Part shown: in pieces, positions 7,123-30,638 of the stretch | How positions within the stretch are numbered: position 1 is the first letter of the stretch | Layout of the letters: each line of letters begins with the position of its first letter | Source: an uncultured Flavobacteriales bacterium | GTDB lineage: Bacteria; Bacteroidota; Bacteroidia; Flavobacteriales_D; Crocinitomicaceae | Length of the DNA stretch: 64,000 bases | Assembly: GCA_903939755.1 (NCBI GenBank) | Contig: CAJAII010000056.1 | Span: forward strand, 1-64,000 | Direction: 5' to 3' | The notes under the pieces: model-generated | Database searches by the model: none | Told to the model about the DNA's origin: nothing | The model's input: the letters and a program-made list of their open reading frames with translations, nothing else | Translations under genes and position numbers: made by a program

Positions 7123-7130
7123 TACATTTG
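7123..7130 (+). promoter_or_regulatory. Putative -7 promoter box for the tRNA-Ala locus
   Basis: TACATTTG fits the Bacteroidota sigma factor consensus TAnnTTTG. No good TTG-type -33 box lies 19 bases upstream. If used, transcription would begin near 7134 and pass through both 51-base tRNA fragments before reaching the intact tRNA at 7255, so the fragments would form part of the precursor leader. Confidence 0.45.
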
Positions 7131-7152
7131 TATTTCATTTCAAAAAATAGTT

Positions 7153-7254
7153 GGGGATGTAGCTCATCCGCCCAGGCGGAGGCTAGAGTTTGATAATTGA
7201 CATGGGGATGTAGCTCATCCGCCCAGGCGGAGGCTAGAGTTTGATAATTGACAT
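7153..7254 (+). repeat. Two tandem 51-bp units carrying the 5' part of tRNA-Ala with a hairpin in the D-loop
   Basis: Units 7153-7203 and 7204-7254 are identical by eye and abut the tRNA-Ala gene, which starts exactly one period later at 7255. Each unit begins with the first 14 bases of the tRNA, then has TCCGCCCAGGCGGA (a perfect 6-bp hairpin) where the tRNA has GTT in the D-loop, then resumes with GGCTAGAGT, which is the 3' side of the tRNA D-arm. It ends in a unit-specific AT-rich tail. Each copy is therefore a 5' tRNA fragment with an inserted palindrome. It lacks an anticodon arm and cannot be a working tRNA. Confidence 0.9.
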
Positions 7255-7328
7255 GGGGATGTAGCTCAGTTGGCTAGAGTGCTTGACTGGCAGTCAAGAG
7301 GTCGTCGGTTCGAGCCCGATCTTCTCCA
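7255..7328 (+). tRNA. tRNA-Ala(GGC)
   Basis: A full cloverleaf can be drawn: acceptor GGGGATG with CTTCTCC, a D-arm, a 5-bp anticodon stem CTTGA/TCAAG with loop CTGGCAG (anticodon GGC, reading GCC) and a T-arm with GGTTCGAG. The acceptor stem has the G3:U70 pair that marks alanine tRNAs and discriminator A73. Positions 6 and 67 form a U-U mismatch. CCA is not encoded (the next bases are CGC). A terminator-like hairpin follows at once. The gene is bracketed by partial copies of itself on both sides. Confidence 0.95.
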
Positions 7329-7332
7329 CGCT

Positions 7333-7365
7333 AAAAAAAAAGAGGTTTTTTAACCTCTTTTTTTT
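7333..7365 (+). terminator. Rho-independent terminator after tRNA-Ala
   Basis: AGAGGTT pairs with AACCTCT across a TTTT loop. Runs of A on the 5' side and T on the 3' side extend the stem and supply the U-tract. It begins about five bases after the mature tRNA end. Confidence 0.85.
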
Positions 7366-7585
7366 ATTCAAAATAAATTGGGCGAGAAGTTCATACCGAG
7401 CGAAGTTTTTACGGAGCCGAGGTAAGCCCGATCTTCTCCACGATATTAAAAAAGAGGTTTTTGACCTCTTTTTTAATTCAAAATAAATTGGGCGAGAAGT
7501 TTGTACCGAGCGAAGTTTTTACGGAGCCGAGGTAAGCCCGATCTTCTCCACGAAATTAAAAAAGAGGTTTTTGACCTCTTTTTTA
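7366..7585 (+). repeat. Two tandem 110-bp units carrying the tRNA-Ala 3' end plus a terminator hairpin
   Basis: Units 7366-7475 and 7476-7585 differ at only about three positions by eye. Each contains an exact 18-base copy of the tRNA 3' end and first trailer bases (7425-7442 and 7535-7552, matching 7313-7330), followed by a 13-bp perfect hairpin with T-run (7446-7476 and 7556-7586) resembling the terminator after the real tRNA. The first half of each unit is unlike the tRNA but holds GAGAAG, which could pair with CTTCTC of the fragment, with TACC/GGTA nested inside. The last hairpin may also terminate the convergent gene that ends at 7589. Confidence 0.9.
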
Positions 7586-7588
7586 ATT

Positions 7589-8200
7589 TTACTCCCTACT
7601 TAAGCAACAGCTAAATATCCTATTGATATCTTGCTGAATATAAAGTGAATAAGCTCCAACACTAGCCATGAAAAATTCACCTTGTGTAATGGCAGAAATT
7701 GTTGAAGCCTTCTCAAAAACTGCTTCAAAGAAAAAATTCTTAGTAATGGGTTGCCATTTTAATTGCATCAATCTTTCAAATTTTTCTTTACCCAGTTGAT
7801 TCAAGCATTTTGATAAAACGGAATTAGCATAATCTTCACTTCTAAAAATCCCATTGTTTTGCAATTTTTTAATAATGTAGCGTTCCGACTTAAGTAAATT
7901 AAAATCAATTTGTTTGTTTATTAAATAATAGGGTGAAATAAAATCGTGTTCGAGAGGATCGACATAGTGAATATAGCGTTGACTATCCAAATCCAACAAC
8001 TCAAAAAAATGTTTTTTACACGGAATTTTCTTCTCCAAACTGCAGCCAACAGGATAGGAAATTGATCGTTCAAAATGCACTTCTGTATCAACACCAATAA
8101 ATGAGGTAGTGAAAAAGGTGTAATTGAATTCAGGGACAAATTCAAAATAAAATAAGGGGTTTCCAATCTCATCATATTGGAAATAAAATTCACTTTTCAT
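7589..8200 (-). CDS. Hypothetical protein, second gene of a two-gene unit
   Basis: I do not recognise this 203-residue protein. It has no signal peptide or membrane segment; it is rich in Phe, Tyr and Ile, with a cysteine pair near the C-terminus (CCLSRE end). It starts at an ATG 12 bases after the stop of the upstream gene at 8213-8713, so the two probably share a transcript. Its gene ends at the last hairpin of the tRNA-Ala repeat array. If the upstream protein is an ADP-ribosyltransferase-like enzyme, a partner or immunity role would be reasonable, but the sequence gives no direct sign of it. Confidence 0.6.
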   Translation of the reverse strand: MKSEFYFQYDEIGNPLFYFEFVPEFNYTFFTTSFIGVDTEVHFERSISYPVGCSLEKKIPCKKHFFELLDLDSQRYIHYVDPLEHDFISPYYLINKQIDFNLLKSERYIIKKLQNNGIFRSEDYANSVLSKCLNQLGKEKFERLMQLKWQPITKNFFFEAVFEKASTISAITQGEFFMASVGAYSLYIQQDINRIFSCCLSRE

Positions 8201-8212
8201 ATAATTATATTA

Positions 8213-8713
8213 TTAATTAAAAGGTCTAAATTCATCTATAGCTCTATAATGGAACGTTCCTTTTTCACCAGGATAATCCCAACATACTTCGTTTTGAAAA
8301 CGGAATAAAGTCAGGGCCCGGAGCGAAACATCCTTGTTTGTATATACATACATTGAATTAGGATCATATCCCAAAAATGGCGCGAAATCATTCCTTGCAG
8401 CATAGTCAATAAACCAATCATTATCAATTATTTGAGTGTCAATTCTCCAGTAATCATATGCTCTAATTGGATTGTCTCCATACATTTTACCCAATTCCTC
8501 ATCATGCGCAAAGGGATAAACAAAAGGATACCAATCATAAGTTGGATTTGACATTAAATTATGCGCATAAACTCCCTTAGGAATTATCGAATAATCACGG
8601 TCTTGGGCAAGTAAGCCCCACTCTACTATTCCTTCCCGAAAAATCGGGTGCGCTACATGAAAAAGGTAGCGATGTGTCTGAATTTTTCTCGGTACAAAAA
8701 GTGCATTTTTCAT
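8213..8713 (-). CDS. Hypothetical protein with faint ADP-ribosyltransferase-like pattern
   Basis: A 166-residue soluble protein with no signal peptide. The N-terminal stretch RYLFHVAHP followed by REGIVEWGLL and then GVYAHN resembles the opening strand-helix pattern of ADP-ribosyltransferase-fold proteins (KptA, PARP-like and polymorphic-toxin ARTs), where a His in the first strand and a following GL after a helix are usual. YVYTNKDVSLRAL and a later Glu (QNEVC) could supply the Tyr and Glu of an H-Y-E triad. This is a pattern match by eye, not a family assignment. It precedes the 7589-8200 gene by 12 bases in the same direction. A role as toxin, modifying enzyme or neither remains open. Confidence 0.55.
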   Translation of the reverse strand: MKNALFVPRKIQTHRYLFHVAHPIFREGIVEWGLLAQDRDYSIIPKGVYAHNLMSNPTYDWYPFVYPFAHDEELGKMYGDNPIRAYDYWRIDTQIIDNDWFIDYAARNDFAPFLGYDPNSMYVYTNKDVSLRALTLFRFQNEVCWDYPGEKGTFHYRAIDEFRPFN

Positions 8714-8851
8714 GGGTTAACGTTTTAAACGAGTTAATAAATCCCTGAAAAATGTGTGCTATTTTTAAATATATTAAAACAAGTTGGTTTTTCCAACTAT
8801 TGTCAACTTTTTATGCTAAAAAAAAAATGAATCGAATAGAATTTCTTCTCC

Positions 8852-9301
8852 CTAAAAGAAGAGTATCATGAGTAGAATTACGAACAAAACTAATCCGTAG
8901 ATTAGCATCAATTGCTTGTTAATGTTACCTTCTGAGCTTTTATTGGCCAATGGCTTCGATTTAGTGGAACTCGATGAGTTTGTTTTAGTGGAATTCGTAT
9001 TTTGGGAATCCTTCTTTTTATCCGCTATCTCTACTTTTTTAGAAGGAATTAATTTATATTTTTCCCAATTCAAATGATAGGATTCACCCAAAAACACCTC
9101 ATCACCACTGTCTAATAAAGTATAGCCTTTTAATCGTTTGCCATTGATAAAAGTGCCGCTTTTAGAATTTAAATCAGTTATGAAAACATTGCCTTCCGTA
9201 TCGCTAAATAATTCTAAGTGAAATAAGTCAACCGAACTATTCTGGACAACAATGTCATTTTTTGGTGAGGTACCGAAACGAAGATGAATGTTTTTTTGCA
9301 T
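8852..9301 (-). CDS. FHA-domain protein with C-terminal membrane anchor
   Basis: Residues about 1-85 form a forkhead-associated domain, with FGTSPKNDIVV near the start, then LNSKSGTFINGKRL, the usual FHA signature; such domains bind phosphothreonine peptides. A Ser/Thr/Asn/Lys-rich linker (about 90-125) follows, then one hydrophobic helix at the C-terminus (about 129-149). The layout predicts a tail-anchored protein with the FHA domain in the cytoplasm. Its partner kinase is not in the window. It is divergent from parA, with 165 bases between the two starts. Confidence 0.85.
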   Translation of the reverse strand: MQKNIHLRFGTSPKNDIVVQNSSVDLFHLELFSDTEGNVFITDLNSKSGTFINGKRLKGYTLLDSGDEVFLGESYHLNWEKYKLIPSKKVEIADKKKDSQNTNSTKTNSSSSTKSKPLANKSSEGNINKQLMLIYGLVLFVILLMILFF

Positions 9302-9465
9302 TTGTATTAAGGGCAGAAATAAGGATGATAAAAAAATGAATTTTGACTATACCAATGGTTCTACAACAATTATAAACAAATCTAGCTAAATTCAGTTAAT
9401 AAAATCCTTACATTAATTGAAATAATTCAATAAACTTGAATTAATTTTATAGAATAAATAAAACC

Positions 9466-10278
9466 ATGGGGAAGGTAATCGCAATAGCAAACCAAAAAGG
9501 CGGTGTTGGAAAAACTACAACAGCAATAAATCTAGGCGGATGCCTTGGTGTATTGGAATATAAAACATTGATTATCGATGCCGATCCTCAAGCCAACTCT
9601 ACCTCCGGTACAGGGTTTGACCCTTCGGCCGTTCGAAATATTTATGACTGTTTAGTCAATGATTTGGATCCAAAACTGGCCATCTTAACGACTCAAAATC
9701 CAAATTTAGATGTGTTGCCATCGCACATTGATCTTGTTGGGGCAGAATTGGAAATGATTAATTTACCCGACAGAGAGTACCTACTCGAAAAAGCGATTGC
9801 AAAAATAAAAGATGAGTATGACTTTATCTTAATAGATTGTTCCCCATCGCTCGGGTTAATTACCATTAATGCGTTGGTAGCTGCAGATTCAGTAATGATT
9901 CCTGTTCAATGCGAATATTTCGCACTAGAAGGATTAAGTAAGTTATTGAATACCATTAAAATTGTGCAAGCTAGGTTAAAGCCTGATTTGGAAATTGAAG
10001 GCTTGATTTTAACGATGTATGATACCAGATTACGTTTAGCCAATCAAGTAGTTGATGAAGTAAAAACTCATTTTCAAGAATTGGTTTTTGATACAATTAT
10101 TCACAGAAACACCACACTAACGGAAGCCTCGAGTCATGGTGCAACCGTAATTATGCATGATGCAGCTTCAAGAGGAACTATAAATTACCTTAATTTTGCC
10201 CGAGAATTATTGCAAAAAAATAATTTAACTAAGATCGGGAACGACGAAAAAATAATTGAACTTGACAATGAGCAATAA
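9466..10278 (+). CDS. parA: Chromosome partitioning ATPase ParA (Soj)
   Basis: This deviant Walker ATPase works with ParB-parS to segregate the chromosome origin. The Walker A motif KGGVGKTT is at residues 11-18, followed by the LIIDADPQANST motif near 36-47 and a conserved DCSPSLG segment near residue 125. The length of 270 is normal for chromosomal ParA. It starts at an ATG and its end overlaps the preferred parB start by 11 bases, so it is the first gene of a parA-parB-DUF5683 unit. No parS-like palindrome was searched for exhaustively. Confidence 0.95.
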   Translation: MGKVIAIANQKGGVGKTTTAINLGGCLGVLEYKTLIIDADPQANSTSGTGFDPSAVRNIYDCLVNDLDPKLAILTTQNPNLDVLPSHIDLVGAELEMINLPDREYLLEKAIAKIKDEYDFILIDCSPSLGLITINALVAADSVMIPVQCEYFALEGLSKLLNTIKIVQARLKPDLEIEGLILTMYDTRLRLANQVVDEVKTHFQELVFDTIIHRNTTLTEASSHGATVIMHDAASRGTINYLNFARELLQKNNLTKIGNDEKIIELDNEQ

Positions 10279-11158
10279 CCCTAAAAAACAACCTGCTCTC
10301 GGAAGAGGTTTGGGCGCACTTTTAACCAATGTAGATACGGATATCACTTCTTTATCTGGAGCTACTCTTGGATCAATTTCACAATTGCCAATTCATTCAA
10401 TTGAAACCAACCCCTTTAATCCACGTGAGCATTTTGAACAAGAAGCACTGGAAGAATTAGCCATATCTATAGAAACACATGGGATTATTCAGCCTTTAAC
10501 CGTTCGGAAAATGGGGCGTGACAGGTACCAGTTAATTTCAGGTGAAAGACGTTTCCGTGCGGCTCAAATTGCGGGTTTGACGGAAGTGCCTGCCTATATT
10601 AGAATTGCAAATGACCAAGCAATGCTCGAAATGGCACTCGTAGAAAATATTCAAAGAGAAGACTTAAATGCCATTGAAGTTGGTTTGTCCTACTTACGTT
10701 TAATTGAAGAATGTTCGCTTACCCAAGAACAGCTAGGCGAAAAGATTTCAAAATCTCGATCCAACGTAACTAATCACCTTCGATTGTTAAAGTTGCCAGC
10801 CAATATTCAAGCCGGTGTGAGAGATGGAGTAATTTCAATGGGCCACGCAAGAGCGCTGGTTGCTGTAACGGATGAGATTGCGCAAATGGCTCTTTTTGAG
10901 CAAATAACGCAAGATAAATTATCCGTTAGAGACTTAGAACAACTGCTCAAAAAACCAAAGGAAAAAGCCATTTCTACTATCAACGAGAACGATATGAAGC
11001 TAAGCTCAATCCAACTAATTTTTCTGGAAGAGCTGGAGAAACGATTAATTGCTAAGGTTTCGATTCAAAAAAATCAAAAAGGTCAAGGGAAATTAATTGT
11101 GCCTTTTAAATCTGATGAGGATTTTAAACGAATTGTTTCACTACTGAACGGTGAATGA
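10268..11158 (+). CDS. parB: Chromosome partitioning protein ParB
   Basis: DNA-binding centromere protein and CTP-dependent clamp partner of ParA. It opens with the usual basic GRGLGALL motif, then the ParB/Srx N-terminal domain (about 35-125) with NPFNPRE, GIIQPL, GERRFRA and VENIQREDLN, then a helix-turn-helix (QEQLGEKISKSRSNVTNHLRLL) and a C-terminal dimerisation part. I chose the ATG at 10268 (296 residues); a TTG at 10256 would add four residues. Its stop overlaps the next ATG (ATGA). Confidence 0.95.
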   Translation: MSNNPKKQPALGRGLGALLTNVDTDITSLSGATLGSISQLPIHSIETNPFNPREHFEQEALEELAISIETHGIIQPLTVRKMGRDRYQLISGERRFRAAQIAGLTEVPAYIRIANDQAMLEMALVENIQREDLNAIEVGLSYLRLIEECSLTQEQLGEKISKSRSNVTNHLRLLKLPANIQAGVRDGVISMGHARALVAVTDEIAQMALFEQITQDKLSVRDLEQLLKKPKEKAISTINENDMKLSSIQLIFLEELEKRLIAKVSIQKNQKGQGKLIVPFKSDEDFKRIVSLLNGE

Positions 11159-11697
11159 AAAGTATAATTCTTCTTATTGCATTTACTCCTTTACTTCTCT
11201 TTGGGCAAGACAGCCCCATCGTAAAGAAGGATTCAAGTTCCTATTATTTTAAAAAAGCCGTTCTACTTTCTGCTTGCTTACCTGGAGCGGGGCAAGTATT
11301 CAATTCTATCAAAATGACCAATGGTAGGAAAAATGCTTATTGGAAAGTTCCCCTAATCTATGCCGGACTGGGCGCTGCAGGTTATTTTTTAGTTTCGAAT
11401 CAGCAAATGAAAAACAACCTGAAAAATGAATATAGCCTAAGACAATTAGGTGGGGGAAGTCAACAATGGGTAGACTATGACGACCAAGCTGTTCTTTCCT
11501 TGTACCAACAATACCTAGATTTGAGGGACTTATCTATTTTAGCACTTGGTGCGGTCTACTTACTCCAAATCATAGATGCTGGTGTAGAGGCCCATTTTAT
11601 CAAATTTGATGTCAGTGACCAACTGAGTTTATCAATAGACCCCAGTTTGATGAATCTAAATTCTCCTGGATTTAGGCTTAAAATGTCCTTTCGTTAA
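11155..11697 (+). CDS. DUF5683-like membrane protein
   Basis: A 180-residue protein of unknown biochemical function. A signal peptide (about 1-17, ending LLLFGQ) is followed by a conserved patch SACLPGAGQVFN near residues 38-50, then YWKVPLIYAGLGAAGYF, a probable membrane segment, and another hydrophobic stretch near 125-145. This pattern and its position after parB match the DUF5683 family seen in Bacteroidota. The start codon overlaps the parB stop by four bases. The C-terminus ends in a beta-like LKMSFR, which could suggest the outer membrane, but this is uncertain. Confidence 0.75.
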   Translation: MKSIILLIAFTPLLLFGQDSPIVKKDSSSYYFKKAVLLSACLPGAGQVFNSIKMTNGRKNAYWKVPLIYAGLGAAGYFLVSNQQMKNNLKNEYSLRQLGGGSQQWVDYDDQAVLSLYQQYLDLRDLSILALGAVYLLQIIDAGVEAHFIKFDVSDQLSLSIDPSLMNLNSPGFRLKMSFR

Positions 11698-11708
11698 TAA
11701 CAAAAGCT

Positions 11709-11716
11709 TATTTTTG
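11709..11716 (+). promoter_or_regulatory. Putative -7 box just before dapB
   Basis: TATTTTTG fits TAnnTTTG and ends four bases before the dapB ATG at 11721. If functional, the message would be leaderless or nearly so. No clear -33 box lies at the expected distance. Confidence 0.33.
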
Positions 11717-11720
11717 CTCT

Positions 11721-12440
11721 ATGAAAATTGCGCTAATCGGTTATGGAAAAATGGGGAAAGCCATCGAAAAATTGGCCTTAGAGAAAGGGCATCAGATTGC
11801 GGCCATTGTAGATAGTAAAAATCCCATTGAAAGCATCAACTTTGATGGGGTCGATGTTGCCATCGAATTTACACGACCTGAGTTAGCAGTGAAACATATG
11901 AATTTTTGTTTAGAGATTGGTCTGCCAATCGTTGTAGGAACAACCGCTTGGCAAAATGACTTAACAAAAATTACGGAAAATGTTTTCCAATGTAATGGTG
12001 CGCTTCTACATGCAAGTAATTTTAGTATTGGTGTAAATTTGTTCTTCGAGATGAATAAAAAACTCGCGGAAATTATGGAGGCTCACCCAAGCTATAAGTT
12101 AGAAATGACAGAAATTCATCACACGCAAAAATTAGATAAACCAAGTGGGACCGCTGTCACCCTTGCCGAAGGAATTATGGAACACAATAATAATTACAAG
12201 AATTGGCGCTTAGCAGAAAAAAATGAGCCTGAAAATGAAAATGAATTTTTCATTCATGCGCTTCGTGAAGAAAATGTTCCCGGCACACACATTATCAATT
12301 ATTCTTCTCCCATCGACAGCATTCAAATGCAACATATAGCACACTCACGAGATGGATTTGCGCTGGGAGCAATTCTTGCCGCAGAATGGATCAAGAATAA
12401 AAAAGGTATTTTTACCATGAAAGACGTTTTACAGAATTAA
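11721..12440 (+). CDS. dapB: 4-hydroxy-tetrahydrodipicolinate reductase
   Basis: Reduces hydroxytetrahydrodipicolinate with NAD(P)H in the diaminopimelate/lysine pathway, feeding peptidoglycan synthesis. The nucleotide-binding motif GYGKMG is at residues 7-12. The active-site stretch EIHHTQKLDKPSGTAV (about 132-147) carries the catalytic His and Lys. At 239 residues it has the shorter length usual in Bacteroidota. It lies 23 bases after the DUF5683 gene and 11 bases before lepB, so it is in the middle of a same-strand block. Confidence 0.95.
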   Translation: MKIALIGYGKMGKAIEKLALEKGHQIAAIVDSKNPIESINFDGVDVAIEFTRPELAVKHMNFCLEIGLPIVVGTTAWQNDLTKITENVFQCNGALLHASNFSIGVNLFFEMNKKLAEIMEAHPSYKLEMTEIHHTQKLDKPSGTAVTLAEGIMEHNNNYKNWRLAEKNEPENENEFFIHALREENVPGTHIINYSSPIDSIQMQHIAHSRDGFALGAILAAEWIKNKKGIFTMKDVLQN

Positions 12441-12451
12441 CATAATAACCT

Positions 12452-14305
12452 ATGAGTTTTTTATTTTTTTACCTATTAATACTAGTTCACCCCTACCTAG
12501 CCATGTGGTGGAAATCGTTCCCAAAAGCCGGAAGAAAACCATGGGAAGCCTTAATTCCTGGTTATAATTACTTCATTTTATTTAAGATTACGTGTTCAAA
12601 ACCTTTTTGGTCACTGTTAATGCTATTTCCAGGTGTACACCTTGTGATGCTTGCCGTTGCTAATGCCAGTTATTTAAAACGATTTGGCTACTATTCCTTC
12701 ACCGATACCTTGCAAGCCATCTTGTTTCCCTACCTACTAAGTTACAAGGCGACAAGAGATAACGCTGAATTTGGAAAAGAAACAAACTGGTCCAACTCAA
12801 AAGAAATTCAAAGTCGAAAATGGAGTGATCACATTGCATTATTCTTGAGCTTACCGGTAATCGGACATGTAATTGCCCTAGCAATTGGAGCAGTTTCCCG
12901 CGATAAACCGGGCAATAAATCAAGAATCAAGGAATGGGGAGACTCTATTATTTTTGCGCTGGTAGCAGCAAGTATTATTCGAACTTACGTATTTGAACCC
13001 TTTCAAATACCAACTGGATCCATGGAAAAGACACTACTCGTAGGTGATTTTTTATTCGTTAACAAATTAGCATACGGTCCAAAAGTACCGGTTACGCCAC
13101 TTTCTTACCCACTTGTGCATAACAACGTGCCTTGGATAAATATCCCTTCTTATACACTTCTAGAAAAAGGAAGTTATTTTCGCTTGCCAGGATTTGGAAA
13201 AGTGAATCGTAATGATGTGGTTGTTTTTAATTACCCTTCTGGCGATACAGCCATCTATGACCCCCGCGTACCGGAAGGATTAATGGGACACGATTACCAC
13301 GGCGTACTCATTTCAGAAGCACTTTATTATTGGAGAACAGATAAAAATGCTTCTTTTTCAAGTGACTCTGCCTATTATAATTTCATGAATAAAAATGGCC
13401 AAGATTTTATAAGCAATATTAACTATTGGAAAAAATTGGCAAGACAAGGAATGGAAAATGGAGAGACCTACTGTCGAGGTGGCATGCCCGAAAAAGGATT
13501 GGATTATATTGAACACAAAGGATTGATATATCGTCCTGTTGACAAGAGAGAAAATTATATAAAACGTTGTGTTGGAACTCCTGGAGATTGGCTTCAAGTA
13601 AAAGGTTCCATTCTTTATGTAAATGGTAAATCTGCTTGGGTGGCTCCAAATCAATGTCTGCAATACAAGGTAATGAAGAGCAACCTTGCATTTCCAATGC
13701 AAAATGAAATGTGCGAACGCTTTGGTCTTGAAAATGACCCTAGTGGCGCGCGAACTGACTTCGAAGATCGCTACCCAGATTTCTATTTACTTACCCTTAC
13801 ACCAGAAGAAAAGAACAAAATACAAAAAGCGTATCCTCAAGCCGTCTTTGAAATTTATATTCCTAGCGAAAGGGCAGATAAGTACGGTGCAAAACCTGAT
13901 GTTCAACAAATGATTGAAAACTTGAATATTTTTCCAAAAGATTTCTATGTAAACAATACGATGACGGACTTTGATAAATTTCAAGTGCCACGGAAAGGAC
14001 AAACAATAAAAATATCGAAAGATAATATTGCGTGGTACCGACGTATTATTACAGCCTATGAAGGTCATACACTTGTAGAGTCAAAAAATGGAACACTATT
14101 AATCGATGGAAAGAAAAGTACTACCTATACTTTTGCCATGAATTACTATTGGCTTATGGGAGATAATAGGTATAACTCGGCAGATTCAAGAGTTTGGGGA
14201 TTTGTTCCGGAGGATCATGTGGTAGGAAGAGCTTCCCTTGTTTGGTTTTCAAAAAGCGCGTATAAAGGAATTAGATGGGATAGACTGTTTAAGTTAATCA
14301 AGTAA
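12452..14305 (+). CDS. lepB: Signal peptidase I
   Basis: Membrane serine protease that removes signal peptides from secreted proteins. At 617 residues it is about twice the Escherichia coli enzyme. Several membrane segments fill about the first 180 residues. The catalytic Ser is in PTGSMEKTL (Ser190 by coordinates) and the general-base Lys is in YIKRCVGTPGD (Lys371), so about 180 residues separate them, far more than in short enzymes. The closing box GDNRYNSADSRVWG is near residue 570. The start is ATG, and the stop overlaps the next ATG as TAATG. Long LepB versions are known in Bacteroidota; what the insert does is not known from the sequence. Confidence 0.93.
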   Translation: MSFLFFYLLILVHPYLAMWWKSFPKAGRKPWEALIPGYNYFILFKITCSKPFWSLLMLFPGVHLVMLAVANASYLKRFGYYSFTDTLQAILFPYLLSYKATRDNAEFGKETNWSNSKEIQSRKWSDHIALFLSLPVIGHVIALAIGAVSRDKPGNKSRIKEWGDSIIFALVAASIIRTYVFEPFQIPTGSMEKTLLVGDFLFVNKLAYGPKVPVTPLSYPLVHNNVPWINIPSYTLLEKGSYFRLPGFGKVNRNDVVVFNYPSGDTAIYDPRVPEGLMGHDYHGVLISEALYYWRTDKNASFSSDSAYYNFMNKNGQDFISNINYWKKLARQGMENGETYCRGGMPEKGLDYIEHKGLIYRPVDKRENYIKRCVGTPGDWLQVKGSILYVNGKSAWVAPNQCLQYKVMKSNLAFPMQNEMCERFGLENDPSGARTDFEDRYPDFYLLTLTPEEKNKIQKAYPQAVFEIYIPSERADKYGAKPDVQQMIENLNIFPKDFYVNNTMTDFDKFQVPRKGQTIKISKDNIAWYRRIITAYEGHTLVESKNGTLLIDGKKSTTYTFAMNYYWLMGDNRYNSADSRVWGFVPEDHVVGRASLVWFSKSAYKGIRWDRLFKLIK

Positions 14306-14904
14306 TGCCCCTTTTTCCAAGTGCCTATTTCCCTTCTATTGGGTACCTTAAATTATTAAACAAATTTCAAGATGCGCAAATTGATTTACACGAAAACTTT
14401 GTCAAACAAAGTATTCGTAATAGATGTGAAATATTAAGCGCAAATGGCAAATTAAAATTAATCGTGCCCGTCAAACACGATCGCAGCACTAAATTAACAA
14501 GTGGAGCAATACAAATTGATTACACGGAACGATGGCCCATTATTCATTGGCGAGCAATTCATGCTGCATACGCCCATGCCCCCTATTTCGAAGCATATGA
14601 ATCGGAAATAAAAGATTGTATTTTGACGACTCATTTCTATTTGTTTGAAAAAAACAGCGCTATTCTAACTATGCTCAGTAATCTATTGGACATTTCATTG
14701 GAAAGGCAATATTCAGCAACTTATCTGCAAGAAGATAAAGCAGATTTTAGATCCTATGATTTTTTGAATTCAGATGAAGAAACCAAAAAATACCAACAAG
14801 TATTCAGTTATCATACACCATTTGAGCAAAATTTATCGATTTTAGACGTCTTATTTAATGAAGGACCTTTTGCAAGAAACTGGATCCTTACAGACCAAAA
14901 ATAA
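14305..14904 (+). CDS. WbqC-like family protein
   Basis: A 199-residue protein of the WbqC-like family, whose members often sit near polysaccharide or signal peptidase genes; the reaction is not firmly known. Visible family features are the N-terminal PSAYFPSIGYLKLL with a following VKQSIRNRCEI, the KLIVPVKHD segment, and HWRAIHAAYAHAPYFE near residues 80-95. Its start overlaps the lepB stop by one base, implying co-translation. Its last 17 bases overlap the convergent gene on the other strand. Confidence 0.85.
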   Translation: MPLFPSAYFPSIGYLKLLNKFQDAQIDLHENFVKQSIRNRCEILSANGKLKLIVPVKHDRSTKLTSGAIQIDYTERWPIIHWRAIHAAYAHAPYFEAYESEIKDCILTTHFYLFEKNSAILTMLSNLLDISLERQYSATYLQEDKADFRSYDFLNSDEETKKYQQVFSYHTPFEQNLSILDVLFNEGPFARNWILTDQK

Positions 14905-15853
14905 GGGAATTGGTAGATTTTTTTTGAAATAATTTGTTCCAATTTACCTTAACGATTGAATTATTCATTAAATCATTATTGGAAATAAACAAATCTCCAA
15001 AAGCATTAAATGTCATTCCTGTAGGATTCGAAAATTGCCTATCGGAAAGAATAGCAAAATTCACTAATTCACCAAATTGATTGAAAACAGCCATTGATTT
15101 ATCAATAGAAGACAAAACATAGATTTCATTTGTTTTTGGATGAACTGAAATAGAAGTTGGAATAAAGTTTAACCCCATTACCGTATCGCCATATTCATCC
15201 ATTCTAAAAGAATTGATTTTGATGTGGTTTTTCTCAGCAAAAACCTCTAAATCTGCCACATCAAACGTAAACAAAGGTTTCTCATTAAAAATTCCTTTAT
15301 TAAGATTGTAAGTATACACGGAACGTTCTGCACTTTGTATTTCACTTTCAGAAGGATCTCCAATAATAAATAATCGATGTGTTAACGCATGGTGACATAT
15401 AGCGGCACTTTTTATGGAGGTATTACCTTCTAACAAGAGCGTTGTGTGTAAAGAATCGAACGGCGCATATGATCGATAAACAGACATGTCCTCAGTAAAA
15501 AGCATCAAACTTGAATCAACAACCACTGCATCACGAATATCATTTAAGATACCAAACTTCAAGGCAGAACTAACACTATTTGATGCTATATTGTACAATA
15601 CAACATTGCCATGCTCCGATTGAATACAAGCATAATTTGAATTATCTAACATTGAAAAATGAACAAAAGGGTCATTTCCCATTGGTAATTGCTGCACAGC
15701 ATTTACATGATCGAGGTCGAAATAACCGTCTTCCTTCAAAAACGACGTGGCCTTTTCATTATAATAAGTTGATACACCAATATCCTCTATTGACTTTGCT
15801 GCTATCACAGATAGAATAGCTAAAACGAAAGAAAAGTAATATTGCTTTTTCAC
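14888..15853 (-). CDS. Secreted SdiA-regulated-like beta-propeller protein
   Basis: A 321-residue protein with an N-terminal hydrophobic signal or anchor (about 4-20). The rest reads as beta-propeller blades: repeated short strands with motifs such as SISVHPKTNEIYVLSS and NPTGMTFNAFGDLFIS near the C-terminus. This resembles SdiA-regulated/NHL-type proteins of Bacteroidota. The likely start is GTG at 15853. It converges on the wbqC-like gene with a 17-base tail-to-tail overlap. The substrate is not predictable; a calcium-dependent lactonase-like or scaffold role are both possible. Confidence 0.7.
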   Translation of the reverse strand: MKKQYYFSFVLAILSVIAAKSIEDIGVSTYYNEKATSFLKEDGYFDLDHVNAVQQLPMGNDPFVHFSMLDNSNYACIQSEHGNVVLYNIASNSVSSALKFGILNDIRDAVVVDSSLMLFTEDMSVYRSYAPFDSLHTTLLLEGNTSIKSAAICHHALTHRLFIIGDPSESEIQSAERSVYTYNLNKGIFNEKPLFTFDVADLEVFAEKNHIKINSFRMDEYGDTVMGLNFIPTSISVHPKTNEIYVLSSIDKSMAVFNQFGELVNFAILSDRQFSNPTGMTFNAFGDLFISNNDLMNNSIVKVNWNKLFQKKSTNSLIFGL

Positions 15854-15973
15854 AACTTTATAATTAGTGTAACAAATGTATCTATTTTTTGATAAAACAA
15901 AAAGAATAATACTAATTATCCTCTTAATGAAATAAAATATGTTTTGAAATCATTAAAAACCTAAAAGTTCCCT

Positions 15974-15981
15974 TAACTTTG
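15974..15981 (+). promoter_or_regulatory. Putative -7 box for the 16010 gene
   Basis: TAACTTTG fits TAnnTTTG and lies 28 bases before the ATG at 16010. A TTTTG at 15942-15946 is too far upstream to be a standard -33 box. Confidence 0.42.
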
Positions 15982-16009
15982 CTTACTAAGTTTCCTTAAA
16001 AATTAATTT

Positions 16010-16690
16010 ATGTATTCAAAATTAATATCAAGTGTTATCCTCATTCTATTTGCTTTTACCATTCAAAGTCAAGTAAGTTTAAACCTTGGTTCTGGTGTCT
16101 TAAAAGGTTTCGGTGTGCCAAAATCATTTTTTGGTTTTCACGGAGGCTTTGAACTTCCTCGAAATAACGATGTTACTTTTTATGTACGTATGGGCTATTA
16201 TTTACCGAGGAAAGAAGATGATGTTATGATGACCAATGTAACGGCTACTGATCTTACAGCTAGCCCCTATAACCTCAGCGTAAATTACTTAACATCTACG
16301 AATTATACGACGATAGAAGGTGGAACGCGCTATTATCTTGGTAATGATTACGACAATGGATTTTCTTTTTACGGCGGAAGTAATTTTATGCTATTCATTA
16401 ACTCCGTGAAACGAAAGTATGAAAAACTAGATGTATCAGGACAATACACTTGGGAAAACGGCTATGAATTACCTCCTAATGAAGAAGTTAAAGGAACTAT
16501 TCTAAGTTTGGCTTTAGGTTTACAAGGTGGAATAAAATATACCATTCCTGCTAGAGGAACCATTTATGCCGATATTACCGGTAATTATGCACTTTTTGGC
16601 AAAGCAAGTAACACAACCGCTCAAAATACTGCTTTATACGCTCCCATGATATTTATTTTTAATGTGGGCTTCCGAAAAGATTTATATTAA
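16010..16690 (+). CDS. Outer membrane beta-barrel-like protein
   Basis: A 226-residue protein with a signal peptide (about 1-20, SVILILFAFTIQSQ). It consists of alternating hydrophobic/polar strands with aromatic girdle residues (FYVRMGYYLP, GGTRYYLG, FSFYGGSNFM, GTIYADITGNYALFG) and ends in FNVGFRKDLY. This looks like an eight-stranded outer-membrane beta-barrel, as is common among small porin-like proteins of Bacteroidota. No ligand or enzymatic motif is seen. It converges on aroK with one base between the two genes. Confidence 0.7.
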   Translation: MYSKLISSVILILFAFTIQSQVSLNLGSGVLKGFGVPKSFFGFHGGFELPRNNDVTFYVRMGYYLPRKEDDVMMTNVTATDLTASPYNLSVNYLTSTNYTTIEGGTRYYLGNDYDNGFSFYGGSNFMLFINSVKRKYEKLDVSGQYTWENGYELPPNEEVKGTILSLALGLQGGIKYTIPARGTIYADITGNYALFGKASNTTAQNTALYAPMIFIFNVGFRKDLY

Positions 16691-16691
16691 G

Positions 16692-17213
16692 CTAATTAGC
16701 AAGGATCTTAACTAATTGTTTCGCAATAGCTTCCACGCTTCCATTTCCATTTATAATAATATTCGCACGGCTATAATAAGGTACCCGATCTGCAATAGTC
16801 GCAGCGATAAACTCCTTTAATTCATCTCCAGAAAGCGCTGATAGTAGGGGCCTATTGGCATTTTGATTACTTATCCTTTCAAACAACACATCGTTGGAGC
16901 ACTCCAAATAAATTACCGTACCCATTTGCAACATTTTATCTAGGTTATCGTGAAAACAGGGCAATCCACCACCCGTTGCACAAACAATATTTTTATTAGG
17001 ATCTAGATTAGTCAACCAAGCAACTTCTCTCTCACGAAAATAATCCCAAGATTGCTTTTTGACAATCGCATCAATGGACAAACCTTCACTATCCTCAATA
17101 AATTGATCTGAATCTATGAAATCAACACCAAGAAGAACGGATAATAATTTACCTACACTTGACTTGCCTGCCCCCATGAATCCGACAAGAAAAATAACTT
17201 TTTTTGGTAGCAA
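16692..17213 (-). CDS. aroK: Shikimate kinase
   Basis: Phosphorylates shikimate at O3 with ATP in aromatic amino acid synthesis. The P-loop GFMGAGKS is at residues 11-18, DFIDSD with shikimate-binding Asp follows near 34-39, and CATGGGLP near 80 is the Walker B/substrate loop. NANRPLL is the lid arginine region. The 173-residue length is standard. The only start near the N-terminus is TTG at 17213; the next ATG (Met13) lies inside the P-loop, so TTG is preferred. The gene is divergent from tRNA-Lys. Confidence 0.92.
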   Translation of the reverse strand: MLPKKVIFLVGFMGAGKSSVGKLLSVLLGVDFIDSDQFIEDSEGLSIDAIVKKQSWDYFREREVAWLTNLDPNKNIVCATGGGLPCFHDNLDKMLQMGTVIYLECSNDVLFERISNQNANRPLLSALSGDELKEFIAATIADRVPYYSRANIIINGNGSVEAIAKQLVKILAN

Positions 17214-17290
17214 ATGATTTTTTTTATGAATTGAAAATGAAAGATTTAAATAAATAAATCAATAAAAAAACAAAATTACCAAATTAATGA

Positions 17291-17321
17291 TTTGAAAAAC
17301 AAAATAATCAATGTATCTTTG
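17291..17321 (+). promoter_or_regulatory. Promoter of tRNA-Lys
   Basis: TTTG at 17291-17294, a 19-base spacer, then TATCTTTG at 17314-17321. This is an almost ideal Bacteroidota vegetative promoter (TTTG-N19-TAnnTTTG). The tRNA begins 16 bases after the box. Confidence 0.78.
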
Positions 17322-17336
17322 CACCCCAAAAAGCAT

Positions 17337-17409
17337 GATTCCTTAGCTCAGCTGGTAGAGCAATACACTTTTAATGTATGGGCCCTGGGTTCGAATCCCA
17401 GAGGGATCA
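17337..17409 (+). tRNA. tRNA-Lys(TTT)
   Basis: Acceptor GATTCCT pairs with AGGGATC (with one G-U pair). The D-arm reads AGCTCAGCTGGTAGAGC, the anticodon stem ATACA/TGTAT encloses CTTTTAA (anticodon TTT, codons AAA/AAG), and the T-arm is CTGGG/CCCAG around TTCGAAT. Discriminator A73; CCA is not encoded. It has a strong promoter upstream and a terminator starting seven bases after the 3' end. Confidence 0.96.
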
Positions 17410-17415
17410 CAAAAG

Positions 17416-17450
17416 AAACCCATTTCCAACAGGAAATGGGTTTTTTCTTT
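17416..17450 (+). terminator. Rho-independent terminator after tRNA-Lys
   Basis: A 12-bp perfect stem (AAACCCATTTCC with GGAAATGGGTTT) with loop AACA, followed by a T-rich run. Confidence 0.88.
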
Positions 17451-17494
17451 TTAATGACGTTCAAAATTTATTTTGATAAGTTAGAAAAAATAAA

Positions 17495-17680
17495 AAACCA
17501 TGAACTGCGCAGCAGTTTGGGTATTATGCTTGGACTGAGCCAAAGACCGGGTTCATGAAATACTCCCAGAGGGATCAAAAATAGAAAAGCCCAAACTATG
17601 CGTAGCATAGTGGACTCAATGCTTGGAATGAGCCAAGGACCGGGTTCATGAAATACTCCCAGAGGGAGCACAAAAGAATC
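17495..17680 (+). repeat. Two tandem 93-bp units carrying the tRNA-Lys 3' half with T-loop insertions and variable hairpins
   Basis: Core segments 17528-17574 and 17621-17667 match at 45 of 47 positions. Their ends copy the tRNA-Lys T-arm and acceptor 3' strand: GGGTTC, GAA and TCCCAGAGGGA occur in the same order as in the tRNA but with AT and ATAC inserted in the T-loop. The second unit also matches the tRNA trailer (17657-17678 against 17396-17417, one mismatch). In front of each core is a perfect hairpin with different sequence: AACTGC/GCAGTT at 17503-17517 and ACTATGC/GCATAGT at 17595-17611, with loops GCA and GTA. An antisense frame crossing both units (17468-17698) is probably accidental. 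Confidence 0.85.
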
Positions 17681-17855
17681 ACAAACATACTTAAACATTA
17701 TTTACTATCTTTAACTCTTATTACCTTTTAACACTGCTATGTTCGCCCAAACATATAAAAATATTTTACCAATGGGCATTAGAAAAAGAAATGGGAATAT
17801 TAGCTATGAAAAGCTTTTCCTGGAATCCTTCCAATGGAATTCGAAACTAAAAATA

Positions 17856-29951: not shown

Positions 29952-30638
29952 TTATTCAGCGGCAGGTGCCTCTTCAGCACTTGAATCTTCTGCTGCTGGA
30001 GCTTCTTCTGCTGCTGGAGCTTCTTCTGTTGCTGGAGCTTCTTCTGCTACTGGAGCTTCTTCTGCTACTGGAGCTTCTTCTGCTACTGGAGCTTCTTCTG
30101 CTACTACTTCTTCAGAAGTAGAATCATCCATTGCTGGTGCTTCTTCTGAAGCTGCCTCTTCAGCTATCACTTCTTCAACTGGGGTATTCTTAGCTTCGAT
30201 TGCAGCTGCTTTAGCAATATTTGCTTCTGCTTCTGCCTTCATTCTAGCATTCTTTTCTTTCGTTGCAGTATTTGATAAAGAATCCTTTTTTCCTTCAATT
30301 TTACTATCTTTTTCAACTAACCACTTTGCAAATTTCTCTTCAGCTTGCTCCAAAGTTAATGCACCTTTCGCAACGCCTTTTAACAAATGGTTCTTATGAA
30401 GAACACCCTTGTAAGCTAAAATTGCACGAGCAGTTTCAGACATTTCAGCACCTTTTTGCAACCAAGCAAGCGTATTGTCAAAATTAATTTCAATAACAGC
30501 AGGATTAGCTACTGGATTATATGTTCCTAATTTTTCAATGAATTTACCATCTCTTTTCGATCTGCTATCCGCTGCTACTAAGTGAAAAAATGCTTTTCCT
30601 TTTTTACCGTGTCTTTGTAATCTAAGTCTTGTTGCCAT
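29952..30638 (-). CDS. rpsP: Ribosomal protein bS16 with long acidic Ala/Glu-rich C-terminal tail
   Basis: The N-terminal 85 residues are a normal bS16 (MATRLRLQRHGKKGKAFFH, then GKFIEKLGTYNPV and AILAYKGVL). The protein then continues to 228 residues through a charged helical part and a low-complexity tail of EEAPVA/EEAPAA repeats, about 75 residues long, encoded by tandem near-repeats at about 29955-30180. Bacteroidota bS16 proteins often carry extensions; this one is long. The tail is expected to project from the ribosome and is not needed for the S16 fold. Confidence 0.95.
   Translation of the reverse strand: MATRLRLQRHGKKGKAFFHLVAADSRSKRDGKFIEKLGTYNPVANPAVIEINFDNTLAWLQKGAEMSETARAILAYKGVLHKNHLLKGVAKGALTLEQAEEKFAKWLVEKDSKIEGKKDSLSNTATKEKNARMKAEAEANIAKAAAIEAKNTPVEEVIAEEAASEEAPAMDDSTSEEVVAEEAPVAEEAPVAEEAPVAEEAPATEEAPAAEEAPAAEDSSAEEAPAAE

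Follow-up and report, generated by a model that had tools for sequence, protein, structure and literature searches.

What are the tandem repeats that flank the two tRNA genes of this DNA, and what process made them? The window, the whole 64,000-nt stretch from an uncultured Flavobacteriales bacterium that we analyzed, contains two tRNA genes by ARAGORN, Ala(ggc) at 7255-7329 and Lys(ttt) at 17337-17410, and RF00005 is the only Rfam family found in it at gathering scores. The original prediction held that both genes are flanked by tandem units made of pieces of the same tRNA, and proposed a genome-wide habit in the form of a tRNA-targeting mini-element, a sponge RNA class or protected attachment sites. 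The features of the two arrays are as follows.

7123..7130, + strand: TAnnTTTG promoter-like box 5' of the Ala array (TACATTTG; pattern match)
7153..7189, + strand: Ala 5' copy 1, with tRNA-Ala nt 1-14, palindrome (7167-7180) and D-stem 3' side
7204..7240, + strand: Ala 5' copy 2, same as copy 1, palindrome at 7218-7231
7255..7329, + strand: tRNA-Ala(ggc), intact (ARAGORN; Rfam RF00005, 61.5 bits)
7340..7359, + strand: hairpin, terminator-like trailer behind tRNA-Ala, recurring in units at 7452-7470 and 7562-7580 (inspection)
7377..7442, + strand: Ala 3' copy 1, with complement of the T-stem 5' side, GAGAAG-type insert replacing the T-loop, and tRNA 3' end (7425-7442)
7487..7552, + strand: Ala 3' copy 2, tRNA 3' end at 7535-7552
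17314..17321, + strand: TAnnTTTG promoter-like box of tRNA-Lys (pattern match)
17337..17410, + strand: tRNA-Lys(ttt), intact (ARAGORN; Rfam 71.8 bits)
17418..17446, + strand: terminator-like hairpin behind tRNA-Lys (inspection)
17485..17577, + strand: Lys 3' unit 1, with palindrome (17503-17517), expanded-loop T-arm (17549-17574) and tRNA 3' end (17564-17577)
17578..17670, + strand: Lys 3' unit 2, with palindrome (17595-17611), T-arm (17642-17667) and tRNA 3' end (17657-17670, one change)

The window arrays are built from parts of the adjacent tRNA

Both tRNA genes are indeed flanked by tandem units of their own pieces (51 and 110 bp at Ala, 93 bp at Lys). Two identical 51-bp units (7152-7253) lie 5' of tRNA-Ala, each composed of tRNA nt 1-14, TCCGCCCAGGCGGA in place of the D-loop GTT, and the 3' side of the D-stem; within the window, TCCGCCNNGGCGGA (at most one mismatch) is restricted to these units (2 matches against 0.02 expected). 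We take the TAnnTTTG box at Ala to resemble the Bacteroidota -7 box. Two 110-bp units follow tRNA-Ala, each closing with the last 16 tRNA nt and CG (7425-7442, 7535-7552). The two 93-bp units 3' of tRNA-Lys are 77% alike and contain an expanded T-loop, then a terminal TCCCAGAGGGA[T/G]CA, and carry the palindromes AACTGCGCAGCAGTT and ACTATGCGTAGCATAGT. The predicted insertions in the D- or T-loop of the fragments are present at both genes, as TCCGCCCAGGCGGA and the GAGAAG-type insert at Ala and as the expanded T-loop at Lys. Palindromes, also predicted near both arrays, occur in the Ala 5' copies and the Lys units, but no perfect palindrome was found in the Ala 3' units.

Because the matches of Ala and Lys to their own flanks exceed the 99.5% point of a null of 919 tRNA/foreign-flank pairs (p 0.0011, 0 and 0.0034; null maxima of 31 and 30, no lower than some of the own scores), a chance origin of these copies is unlikely. 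When folding was compared with shuffled sequences, the second Lys unit surpassed the shuffles (RNA z -3.75 for 17592-17670; DNA z -2.73). Values for the first Lys unit and for the Ala 5' unit fell between -0.8 and -1.3, and the Ala 3' units had no advantage (RNA z +0.35 and +0.10; DNA, over a shorter stretch, +1.10 and +1.16). The statement that the arrays have little sequence in common is accurate for Ala and Lys, but the 3' units of tRNA-Ala and tRNA-Val in the window's genome are homologous (70% identity, E 5e-13). The layout of Ala 3' copy 1 recurs at this tRNA-Val and, with the motif GAGAAGYYTATRCYGA, at loci L080, L039, L161, L305 and L313.

Partial self-copies recur at tRNA genes of Bacteroidota

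Self-fragments extend well beyond the window, in line with the predicted genome-wide habit; the outcome named beforehand as its refutation, a lack of such fragments at the other tRNA genes of this genome, did not occur. They flank 10 of the 32 tRNA genes of the window's genome (Ala, Lys, Val, Phe, two Met, Arg(tct), His, Ser(gga) and Leu(gag)), 7/32 in a congener and 5/35 and 9/35 in two other families. The copies are pieces of the neighboring tRNA, mostly with one arm or loop exchanged for a palindrome. Using a pattern for a palindrome-bearing D-arm that is independent of acceptor sequence, we recovered at least 117 stretches from named genomes, with a Bacteroidota label on 115 among the matches listed. 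The 80 listed loci contain 101 pattern matches; 83 are followed within 1.5 kb by a tRNA on the same strand, and 78 of the 83 agree with that tRNA at 10 or more of their first 12 nt. Unit sequence turns over fast between close species, and arrays are patchy within a genus.

Small GIY-YIG nucleases accompany the self-copies

A GIY-YIG coding stretch, in some cases interrupted, lies within 1 kb of the unit at 40 of the 117 loci (tblastn), on the unit's strand in 40/40, both counts among the matches listed. Protein searches blind to tRNA genes, with three tRNA-linked GIY-YIG nucleases as queries, yielded 107 ORFs at 90 loci. A tRNA lies no more than 1 kb away from 96 of the ORFs (83 of the loci); after overlapping loci were merged, 92 of 103 distinct places were tRNA-linked. 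All 96 linked ORFs share the strand of their tRNA, and they are hosted by 15 anticodon types, two doubtful tRNA calls excluded. No tRNA was found within 1 kb of the other 11 of 107 ORFs. A sister chromosomal GIY-YIG clade, used as a control, was tRNA-linked in 0/30 cases, and in a PF01541 search of four genomes just 6 of 17 small matches adjoin a tRNA or tmRNA; the tie to the locus is therefore a trait of the tRNA-linked clade and not of every small GIY-YIG protein. Within these bounds the nuclease-tRNA association is strong. Furthermore, tRNA identity tracks the nuclease tree (27 changes against 57.6 after label shuffles that ignore kinship), so that, as in a homing endonuclease, the nuclease is tied to a specific target locus. 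Palindrome class follows the same tree (19 changes against 33.3, with the same kind of shuffle).

By domain, catalytic residues and fold, the linked proteins belong to the GIY-YIG nuclease superfamily. They are single-domain proteins of ~80-95 aa. All five proteins searched, four tRNA-/tmRNA-linked and one free, match Pfam PF01541 (E 9e-14 to 5e-17), and Y5, Y16, G18, R26, H30, W46, E64 and K68 are invariant in the 18 aligned sequences kept after 10 of 28 rows were dropped. The AlphaFold model has a pLDDT of 93; its best Foldseek matches were 1zg2 (UPF0213), SLX1 chains and I-TevI (1ln0), none with E <= 0.001, and a sequence profile match to 1zg2 had an E of 4.7e-8. The Phe-type nuclease is under purifying selection, with dN/dS of 0.04-0.12 in 9 of 10 pairs and an undefined value in the tenth.

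In complete elements the nuclease ORF lies between a tRNA gene and a copy of it

A complete element spans ~300-410 bp, and its single-domain GIY-YIG ORF is flanked by the intact tRNA gene on one side and by a partial copy of that tRNA on the other. The order is tRNA, trailer, ORF and marked 3' copy in the 3' type, and marked 5' copy, ORF and tRNA in the 5' type. As the element, in effect inside the tRNA gene, re-supplies the part that it displaces, the tRNA stays intact. On the far side of the ORF, a copy of the neighboring tRNA (score >= 24) was present for 73 of 91 ORFs compared to 502 of 7218 mismatched pairs; no recognizable copy was found for the other 18. A palindrome with arms of at least 7 marks 72 of 87 ORF-linked copies (shuffles: mean 3.2, maximum 8). 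Of the 3' copies counted, 48/54 terminate exactly on the last nt of the tRNA; 5' copies, which begin at tRNA nt 1 in 25/28, make up 28 of the 87 in the tree set, two of them through doubtful tRNA calls. Insertion points fall inside loops, which make up 47% of the tRNA, in just 40 of 59 cases, and a T-run precedes just 32 of 77 3' ORFs. The palindrome TCCGCC..GGCGGA has 20 sites in the window's genome, 3 within tRNA copies, 16 elsewhere, and one ~100 nt past tRNA-Ser without a recognized fragment.

At tRNA-Phe, a comparison between species revealed alleles with and without the element, with a clean junction. Among close congeners, one locus is empty (L387), one has an ORF-less unit (L388) and one an ORF unit (L386); the window's genome has a mixed array (L389), and L390 and L412 are deletion derivatives. 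L386, L388 and L389 share one common native trailer behind the last copy. Elsewhere, a single tRNA-Asn (L191) is preceded by 11 short units and followed by 8 GIY-YIG units of ~410 bp. The arrays of the window contain no ORF, and their contig (C56) had no PF01541 match among the matches listed.

Origin of the arrays

The analysis shows the association, the anatomy, species with occupied, empty or deleted sites, and a conserved nuclease. To account for these, we consider it likely that the arrays at Ala and Lys derive, as tandem units without the ORF, from very small tRNA-anchored GIY-YIG elements of Bacteroidota. These elements probably spread like free-standing homing endonucleases. The nuclease would cut the DNA of the tRNA gene close to whichever arm its own copy has marked, and repair of the break from the element-bearing allele would insert the element, which is homing. 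Breaks beside such repeats could also drive tandem amplification, and ORF deletion would leave short units such as the Ala and Lys arrays, whose descent from ORF-bearing units we infer, as we do the role of the palindrome. The broader proposal has perhaps an even chance of being right: a phylum-wide class of minimal selfish elements, each with a single-domain GIY-YIG nuclease and the palindrome of its own clade, that home into tRNA-gene arms, re-supply the displaced part, borrow the tRNA promoter and decay into ORF-less tandem arrays. Since ORF-bearing versions with a GIY-YIG nuclease occur at many tRNAs, the mini-element proposal gains support, and the original interpretation as a whole is partly supported.

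Several observations weigh against the element reading. The intact tRNA next to an element retains its loop, and at some loci (L298, L300, L303) the trailer is identical for at least 30 nt on either side, so that this tRNA should be open to cutting; the Ala 3' units have neither a perfect palindrome nor a better-than-shuffle fold; just 40/59 insertions fall in loops and just 32/77 3' ORFs follow a T-run; 18/91 ORFs lack a copy, 11/107 lack a tRNA, and just 6/17 PF01541 matches are tRNA-/tmRNA-linked; and the window arrays have no ORF. TCCGCC..GGCGGA lies mostly outside tRNA copies, and congener G007 (a draft of 170 contigs) has arrays at 7/32 tRNAs with a single small GIY-YIG match, of the tRNA-free clade. 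The last two points, with 16 or 17 of the 20 sites off tRNAs, would also fit a mutational by-product, in which tRNA genes, rich in hairpins, provoke replication slippage or template switching that leaves snap-back palindromes within tandem copies, and GIY-YIG ORFs simply hitch-hike in flanks that are transcribed and tolerant. The identical trailers on either side of tandem units and the rapid turnover of unit sequence agree with this explanation. We nevertheless regard it as unlikely, given the strand agreement (96/96, and 40/40 among the matches listed), the tracking of the nuclease tree by palindrome class and tRNA identity, the 0/30 of the sister clade and the purifying selection on the Phe-type nuclease.

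A structured RNA function, in which transcribed 5' copies and read-through 3' copies serve the tRNA as decoys, sponges or processing signals, appears more doubtful still. In its favor, 66 of 115 first 5' units among the matches listed have a TANNTTYG box in the 60 nt before them, compared to 124 of 2340 random windows; by inspection, some units can close into hairpins that include the acceptor strand; G.T mismatches (15) outnumber A.C (5) in distinct D-palindromes (others 17); and one window unit folds well (z -3.75). However, 4 of the 5 window units tested fold unremarkably, terminator-like hairpins precede the 3' copies, presence is patchy within the genus, and the nuclease ORF is left unaccounted for; the predicted sponge RNA has accordingly little positive support. 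Hosts might instead retain the nuclease as a domesticated tool, if array or tRNA amplification counters tRNA-targeting toxins or defense systems, as SegB does for T6. In T6, a tRNA-Tyr segment is amplified in tandem through SegB (PMC13096335), and ORF-bearing tandem arrays such as the 8 units at L191 exist, yet the amplified units are tRNA fragments and not whole tRNAs, and several ORFs are broken or deleted, which makes this quite improbable. We give least credence to the reading of the copies as scars or decoys of integrative elements with a tyrosine recombinase, for which tRNA 3' ends serve as attachment sites. The 3' tRNA copies resemble att identity blocks, and most stop exactly at the last tRNA nt (48/54 counted), but an integrase gene would not fit into an element of ~300-410 bp that already contains a GIY-YIG ORF (an argument that covers integrase in cis), 5' copies starting at nt 1 and interruptions of the D-arm or anticodon arm are unexpected, and the palindromes are unaccounted for. 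The predicted protected attachment sites are therefore a poor fit, as tRNA 5' ends are used too.

If the proposed tRNA-anchored GIY-YIG elements are real, they would exploit tRNA genes in a way that differs from integrases, introns and transposons, account for many Bacteroidota repeats beside tRNA genes and give a set of small GIY-YIG proteins a likely role. A local curiosity would become a testable genome-wide class, in which tiny nuclease elements parasitize essential tRNA genes without breaking them, and the link between palindrome and clade would offer a direct handle on nuclease specificity. Our literature search found no description of such elements.

Comparison with known systems

REP palindromes with RAYT combine a small nuclease-like protein with palindromic repeats that also occur without the gene; the elements here are alike in this respect, but have a GIY-YIG protein, not a Y1 transposase, and palindromes inside tRNA copies. 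The E. coli tyrT 178-bp repeats and rtT RNA are similar by description, as tandem repeats bearing the 3' end of the adjacent tRNA; we know of no palindrome-marked loop or nuclease ORF there, and a search of the window against Rfam, at gathering scores, did not report RtT. Integrase attachment sites differ in that an integrase gene has no room here and 28/87 copies are 5' copies (two by doubtful tRNA calls). The closest solved sequences and folds to the element nucleases are UPF0213 proteins (1zg2, 1ywl), single-domain GIY-YIG proteins of COG2827, and SLX1; these entries are titled without a stated function or as branched-DNA nucleases, and the listings state no tRNA link.

By description, the nearest precedent for these elements is SegB of phages T4 and T6, together with further free-standing homing endonucleases of the GIY-YIG type, whose genes likewise lie among tRNA genes. 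In tblastn searches of phage records, the Asn-type protein had no match, and the Phe-type protein matched 18 records, all below 60% identity, 10 of which cover at least 80% of the query. SegB cuts within tRNA genes, and 23 of its 83 cut sites show the motif RAWTSGAAC (PMC13096335); it also drives tandem amplification, with homologues reported in Bacteroidota phages too (PMC13096335, PMC2988022). We read RAWTSGAAC as the reverse complement of a T-loop GTTCGAWTC. Unlike SegB, the elements described here are chromosomal, encode a single-domain protein of ~80-95 aa, carry palindrome-marked tRNA fragments and have ORF-less derivatives; if they do home, SegB-like homing into tRNA genes would occur on bacterial chromosomes as well as in phages.

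Partial tRNA copies flank both tRNA genes of the window

ARAGORN identified two tRNA genes in the window:
7255-7329, forward strand, tRNA-Ala(ggc)
17337-17410, forward strand, tRNA-Lys(ttt)

Both genes are flanked by tandem units made of pieces of the same tRNA. Upstream of the tRNA-Ala gene are two 51-bp units. In each, tRNA nucleotides 1-14 are followed by a 14-nt palindrome, which takes the place of three bases of the D-loop, by the 3' strand of the D-stem and by a new leader. The downstream units, of 110 bp at tRNA-Ala and 93 bp at tRNA-Lys, terminate in the final 14-16 tRNA nucleotides, preceded by a T-arm with an enlarged loop; the last 93-bp unit has one change within its tRNA 3' end. 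Only the two tRNA-Ala arrays were found by Tandem Repeats Finder in the window at periods above 30 bp, and the less similar tRNA-Lys pair was picked up by a separate repeat search. The window also contains 6.7 repeats of an 18-bp unit, TCTTCTGCTACTGGAGCT, at 29986-30105, which are perhaps coding.

Several candidate explanations were set aside. Rfam matched only the two tRNAs in the window, and we did not retain a reading of the units as rtT RNA, nor one as integrase att sites. As a signal across the window, the d(GCGNAGC) mini-hairpin was dismissed (9 matches; 8.4 expected), and RNA structure as the driver was without support from four of five fold scores for the window.

Flanking self-copies recur across Bacteroidota

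The original prediction took the two arrays to suggest a genome-wide habit. Rfam RF00005 was used to find the tRNA genes of the window's genome (31 matches) and of three others, all four inside Bacteroidota, and ARAGORN called 32, 32, 35 and 35 tRNA genes on the fetched stretches. Each tRNA was aligned to its own 400-nt flanks, with flanks of tRNAs of different amino-acid identity as the null, and copies beyond the 99.5% point of that null were scored. Own-flank copies were present at 10 of 32 tRNAs in the window's genome, 7 of 32 in its congener (G007), 5 of 35 in a genome of another family (G026) and 9 of 35 in one of a third family (G027). A few flagged tRNAs lack the full pattern, being weak variable- or anticodon-region matches (for example Asn and Leu in G007, Arg(tcg) and Ser in G026). 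As self-copies passed this threshold at further tRNA genes of the window's genome, the original prediction was not refuted. A Flavobacteriales MAG (locus L220) shares 76-96% DNA identity with the window's genome over five pieces of contig C34, in support of a placement in Flavobacteriales.

We then scanned bacterial and archaeal genomes, one for each species, with a pattern for a D-arm broken up by TCCCGA...TCGGGA that includes none of the acceptor sequence. At least 117 stretches matched in named genomes; as only one palindrome was allowed, this is an undercount. Judged by record titles and NCBI ranks, the 117 matches listed comprise 115 from Bacteroidota, one labelled Pseudomonadota (L260, an Algicola sp. 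MAG whose nuclease adjoins that of Muricauda in the tree described below) and one labelled Fidelibacterota (L265, also a MAG); the last two are possibly mislabelled MAG bins. Across 80 listed loci there were 101 matches. For 83 of them a tRNA follows on the same strand, no more than 1.5 kb downstream, and the first 12 nt of the unit agreed with that tRNA at 10 or more positions in 78 of these 83.

GIY-YIG coding stretches accompany many of the copies

At six Flavobacteriaceae loci, a small GIY-YIG-type coding stretch, split in tblastn at two of the loci (L161 and L163), separates the 5' unit from tRNA-Asn. With GIY-YIG queries, tblastn found a coding stretch within 1 kb of the unit in 40 of the 117 listed loci, always on the unit's strand (40/40). 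Outside the window, but in its genome, tRNA-Phe is followed by units in the order ORF-less, ORF-bearing, ORF-less, and a contig end carries a tRNA-Asn fragment with an interrupted GIY-YIG stretch and then an Asn copy with a palindrome in place of the anticodon arm.

The encoded protein is a GIY-YIG nuclease by its match to the Pfam family, and the eight positions invariant in 18 sequences include residues typical of that family (Y, Y, G, R and E). In nine of ten Phe-clade pairs dN/dS was 0.04-0.12, the remaining pair being undefined. In Foldseek, the closest folds to an AlphaFold model (pLDDT 93) were those of the UPF0213 protein 1zg2, of SLX1 and of the catalytic domain of I-TevI; the E-values were modest, all of them above 0.001. 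A sequence profile concurs on UPF0213 and SLX1. None of five proteins had an NCBIfam family, and the Phe-type protein had no match among plasmids.

Three of these proteins were used as queries, and the best 30 loci of each were examined irrespective of tRNAs. Matches were found in 28 of 399 genomes for the Phe-type (order), 55 of 395 for the Ala-type (class) and 54 of 395 for the Asn-type (class). A tRNA lay within 1 kb of 96 of 107 ORFs (83 of 90 loci), a figure that describes the tRNA-linked clade and not all GIY-YIG proteins, because the queries were chosen as already tRNA-linked and only the best 30 loci of each were taken. Counting the overlapping loci L303/L322 and L304/L323 once gives 92 of 103 places. 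All 96 ORFs were on the strand of the tRNA, 77 lying 3' and 19 lying 5' of it. The target tRNAs are Met, Phe, Asn, Arg, Leu, Ala, Val, Glu, Asp, Thr and Lys (15 anticodon types plus two doubtful calls); the closest ARAGORN call is uncertain at L307 and L312, both of which have a tRNA-Arg at a distance of 54 or 63 nt. In 73 of 91 cases, a copy of the neighbouring tRNA scoring at least 24 was present beyond the ORF as seen from that tRNA, compared with 502 of 7218 mismatched tRNA-locus pairs.

When the query was a sister GIY-YIG protein encoded in the window's genome, 49 of 199 genomes had matches, and no tRNA lay within 1 kb at any of the loci (0 of 30). The ORF of this single-domain sister clade (L268-L274, L429-L458) is embedded in local repeat arrays, in a RAYT/REP-like manner, at 15 of 30 loci, scored as at least 1% of positions starting a 12-mer with at least three occurrences in about 2.2 kb; the same signal was found at 0 of 9 control loci of large GIY-YIG proteins. 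A PF01541 search of four genomes gave 26 matches, which we divided ourselves into 17 small and 9 large, and 6 of the 17 small ones lie beside a tRNA or tmRNA. Two GIY-YIG ORFs in G026 deserve mention: at L280 a small ORF begins about 113 nt past the tmRNA gene, and the ORF at L277, scored as tRNA-free, has on its flanks a repeated trailer and a tail, CCCCGTCTTCCACCC, which looks like a tRNA-His relic.

Copy layout and palindromes travel with the nuclease

For a nuclease tree we kept 87 of 162 GIY-YIG ORFs (86 for label counts), requiring a same-strand tRNA within 1 kb, a copy score of at least 24 and a protein of at least 60 aa, with identical duplicates removed. In this set, 25 of 28 5' copies begin exactly at tRNA nucleotide 1, and 48 of the 54 3' copies whose end was counted (six commonest values) stop exactly at the last tRNA nucleotide. 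In the flanks inspected, 3' copies sit beyond the tRNA trailer and 5' copies upstream of the tRNA, and a TAnnTTTG-like box often directly precedes 5' copies (66/115, compared with 124/2340 random windows). Insertion points are most frequent at nucleotides 14 and 49-62, and fall inside loops in only 40 of 59 cases. Inspection of the flanks suggests one rule, in which a fragment comprises one or more tRNA arms, usually with one arm or loop swapped for a hairpin or palindrome.

Two further features were seen at individual loci. By inspection, L126, L118, L143, L138, L034 and L035 have an inverted copy of the terminator region after the tRNA trailer whose inner hairpin differs, an arrangement that might allow a four-way junction. 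At tRNA-Asn of G027 (L131), the intact tRNA has CCAAT and the downstream copy CCAAG, which would give better T-stem pairing.

A perfect palindrome with arms of at least 7 was present in 72 of the 87 copies of the tree set (shuffled mean 3.2, maximum 8). Palindromes differ by nuclease clade, one having mostly CCCGATAGCTATCGGG, another TCCG[CT]C..G[AG]CGGA and another CCTGCCTGCCGGCAGGCAGG. On the tree, palindrome class required 19 changes (mean of 300 shuffles, 33.3), tRNA identity 27 (57.6), side 14 (23.2) and interrupted arm 17 (27.0), each fewer than in any shuffle; as the shuffles ignore descent, this shows that the traits travel with the nuclease and does not show their role.

The palindromes may instead be of general dispersed origin. 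In the window's genome, TCCGCC..GGCGGA occurs at 20 sites (control, 0), of which only 3 are in tRNA copies and 1 is about 100 nt past tRNA-Ser; with 16 elsewhere, this palindrome is not tRNA-exclusive there. In the 117 listed loci, by contrast, 84 of 94 TCCCGATAGCTATCGGGA sites are in D-arm units, for which the loci had been chosen, and 8 of the other 10 are, by eye, in tRNA copies. On four contigs of genome G000 (C17, C25, C36 and C69; loci L418, L420, L425, L426 and L461), dispersed TCCGCCTAGGCGGA palindromes lie inside a larger repeat that has GCTAGCCTCG, or a similar sequence, at its start and GGCTAGCTT at its end. Repeats of the palindrome-in-hairpin kind thus exist away from tRNAs as well.

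The tRNA-Phe locus with and without units

Thirty genomes of the genus were compared at tRNA-Phe. In G233 the native trailer lies immediately 3' of the tRNA. The same trailer follows the last unit in the window's genome, in G225, which has a single ORF-less unit, and in G336, which has a single ORF-bearing one. Remnants are a truncated ORF in G282 and, in G329, only the last ORF codons before the palindrome. This is direct evidence, at tRNA-Phe, that short units can arise via ORF deletion; for the tRNA-Ala and tRNA-Lys arrays it is not proof. One tRNA-Asn of UKL13-3 (L191) is preceded by 11 units of 80 bp and followed by 8 GIY-YIG units, each about 410 bp long.

Comparison with homing endonucleases

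We found no description of tRNA-linked GIY-YIG elements in Bacteroidota among the matches listed from open-licence literature, and the main text of a 2006 GIY-YIG survey contains no word beginning bacteroid, cytophaga or flavobacter (PMC1564403). We class the elements, each a GIY-YIG ORF between an intact tRNA gene and a partial copy, as homing elements by anatomy, not by activity. Under a homing model, a break would be made in a tRNA arm and the element would re-supply the remainder of the tRNA gene, and the Bacteroidota elements are compatible with this. Two observations sit uneasily with the model: the intact tRNA beside the element retains the presumed target, and the congener G007 has arrays without a tRNA-linked nuclease among its matches.

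The best precedent for the Bacteroidota elements is SegB of phage T6, described as a free-standing GIY-YIG homing endonuclease among tRNA genes that drives tandem amplification and cleaves within these genes, with a RAWTSGAAC motif at 23 of 83 cut sites (PMC13096335). In our reading, this motif is the T-loop in reverse complement.
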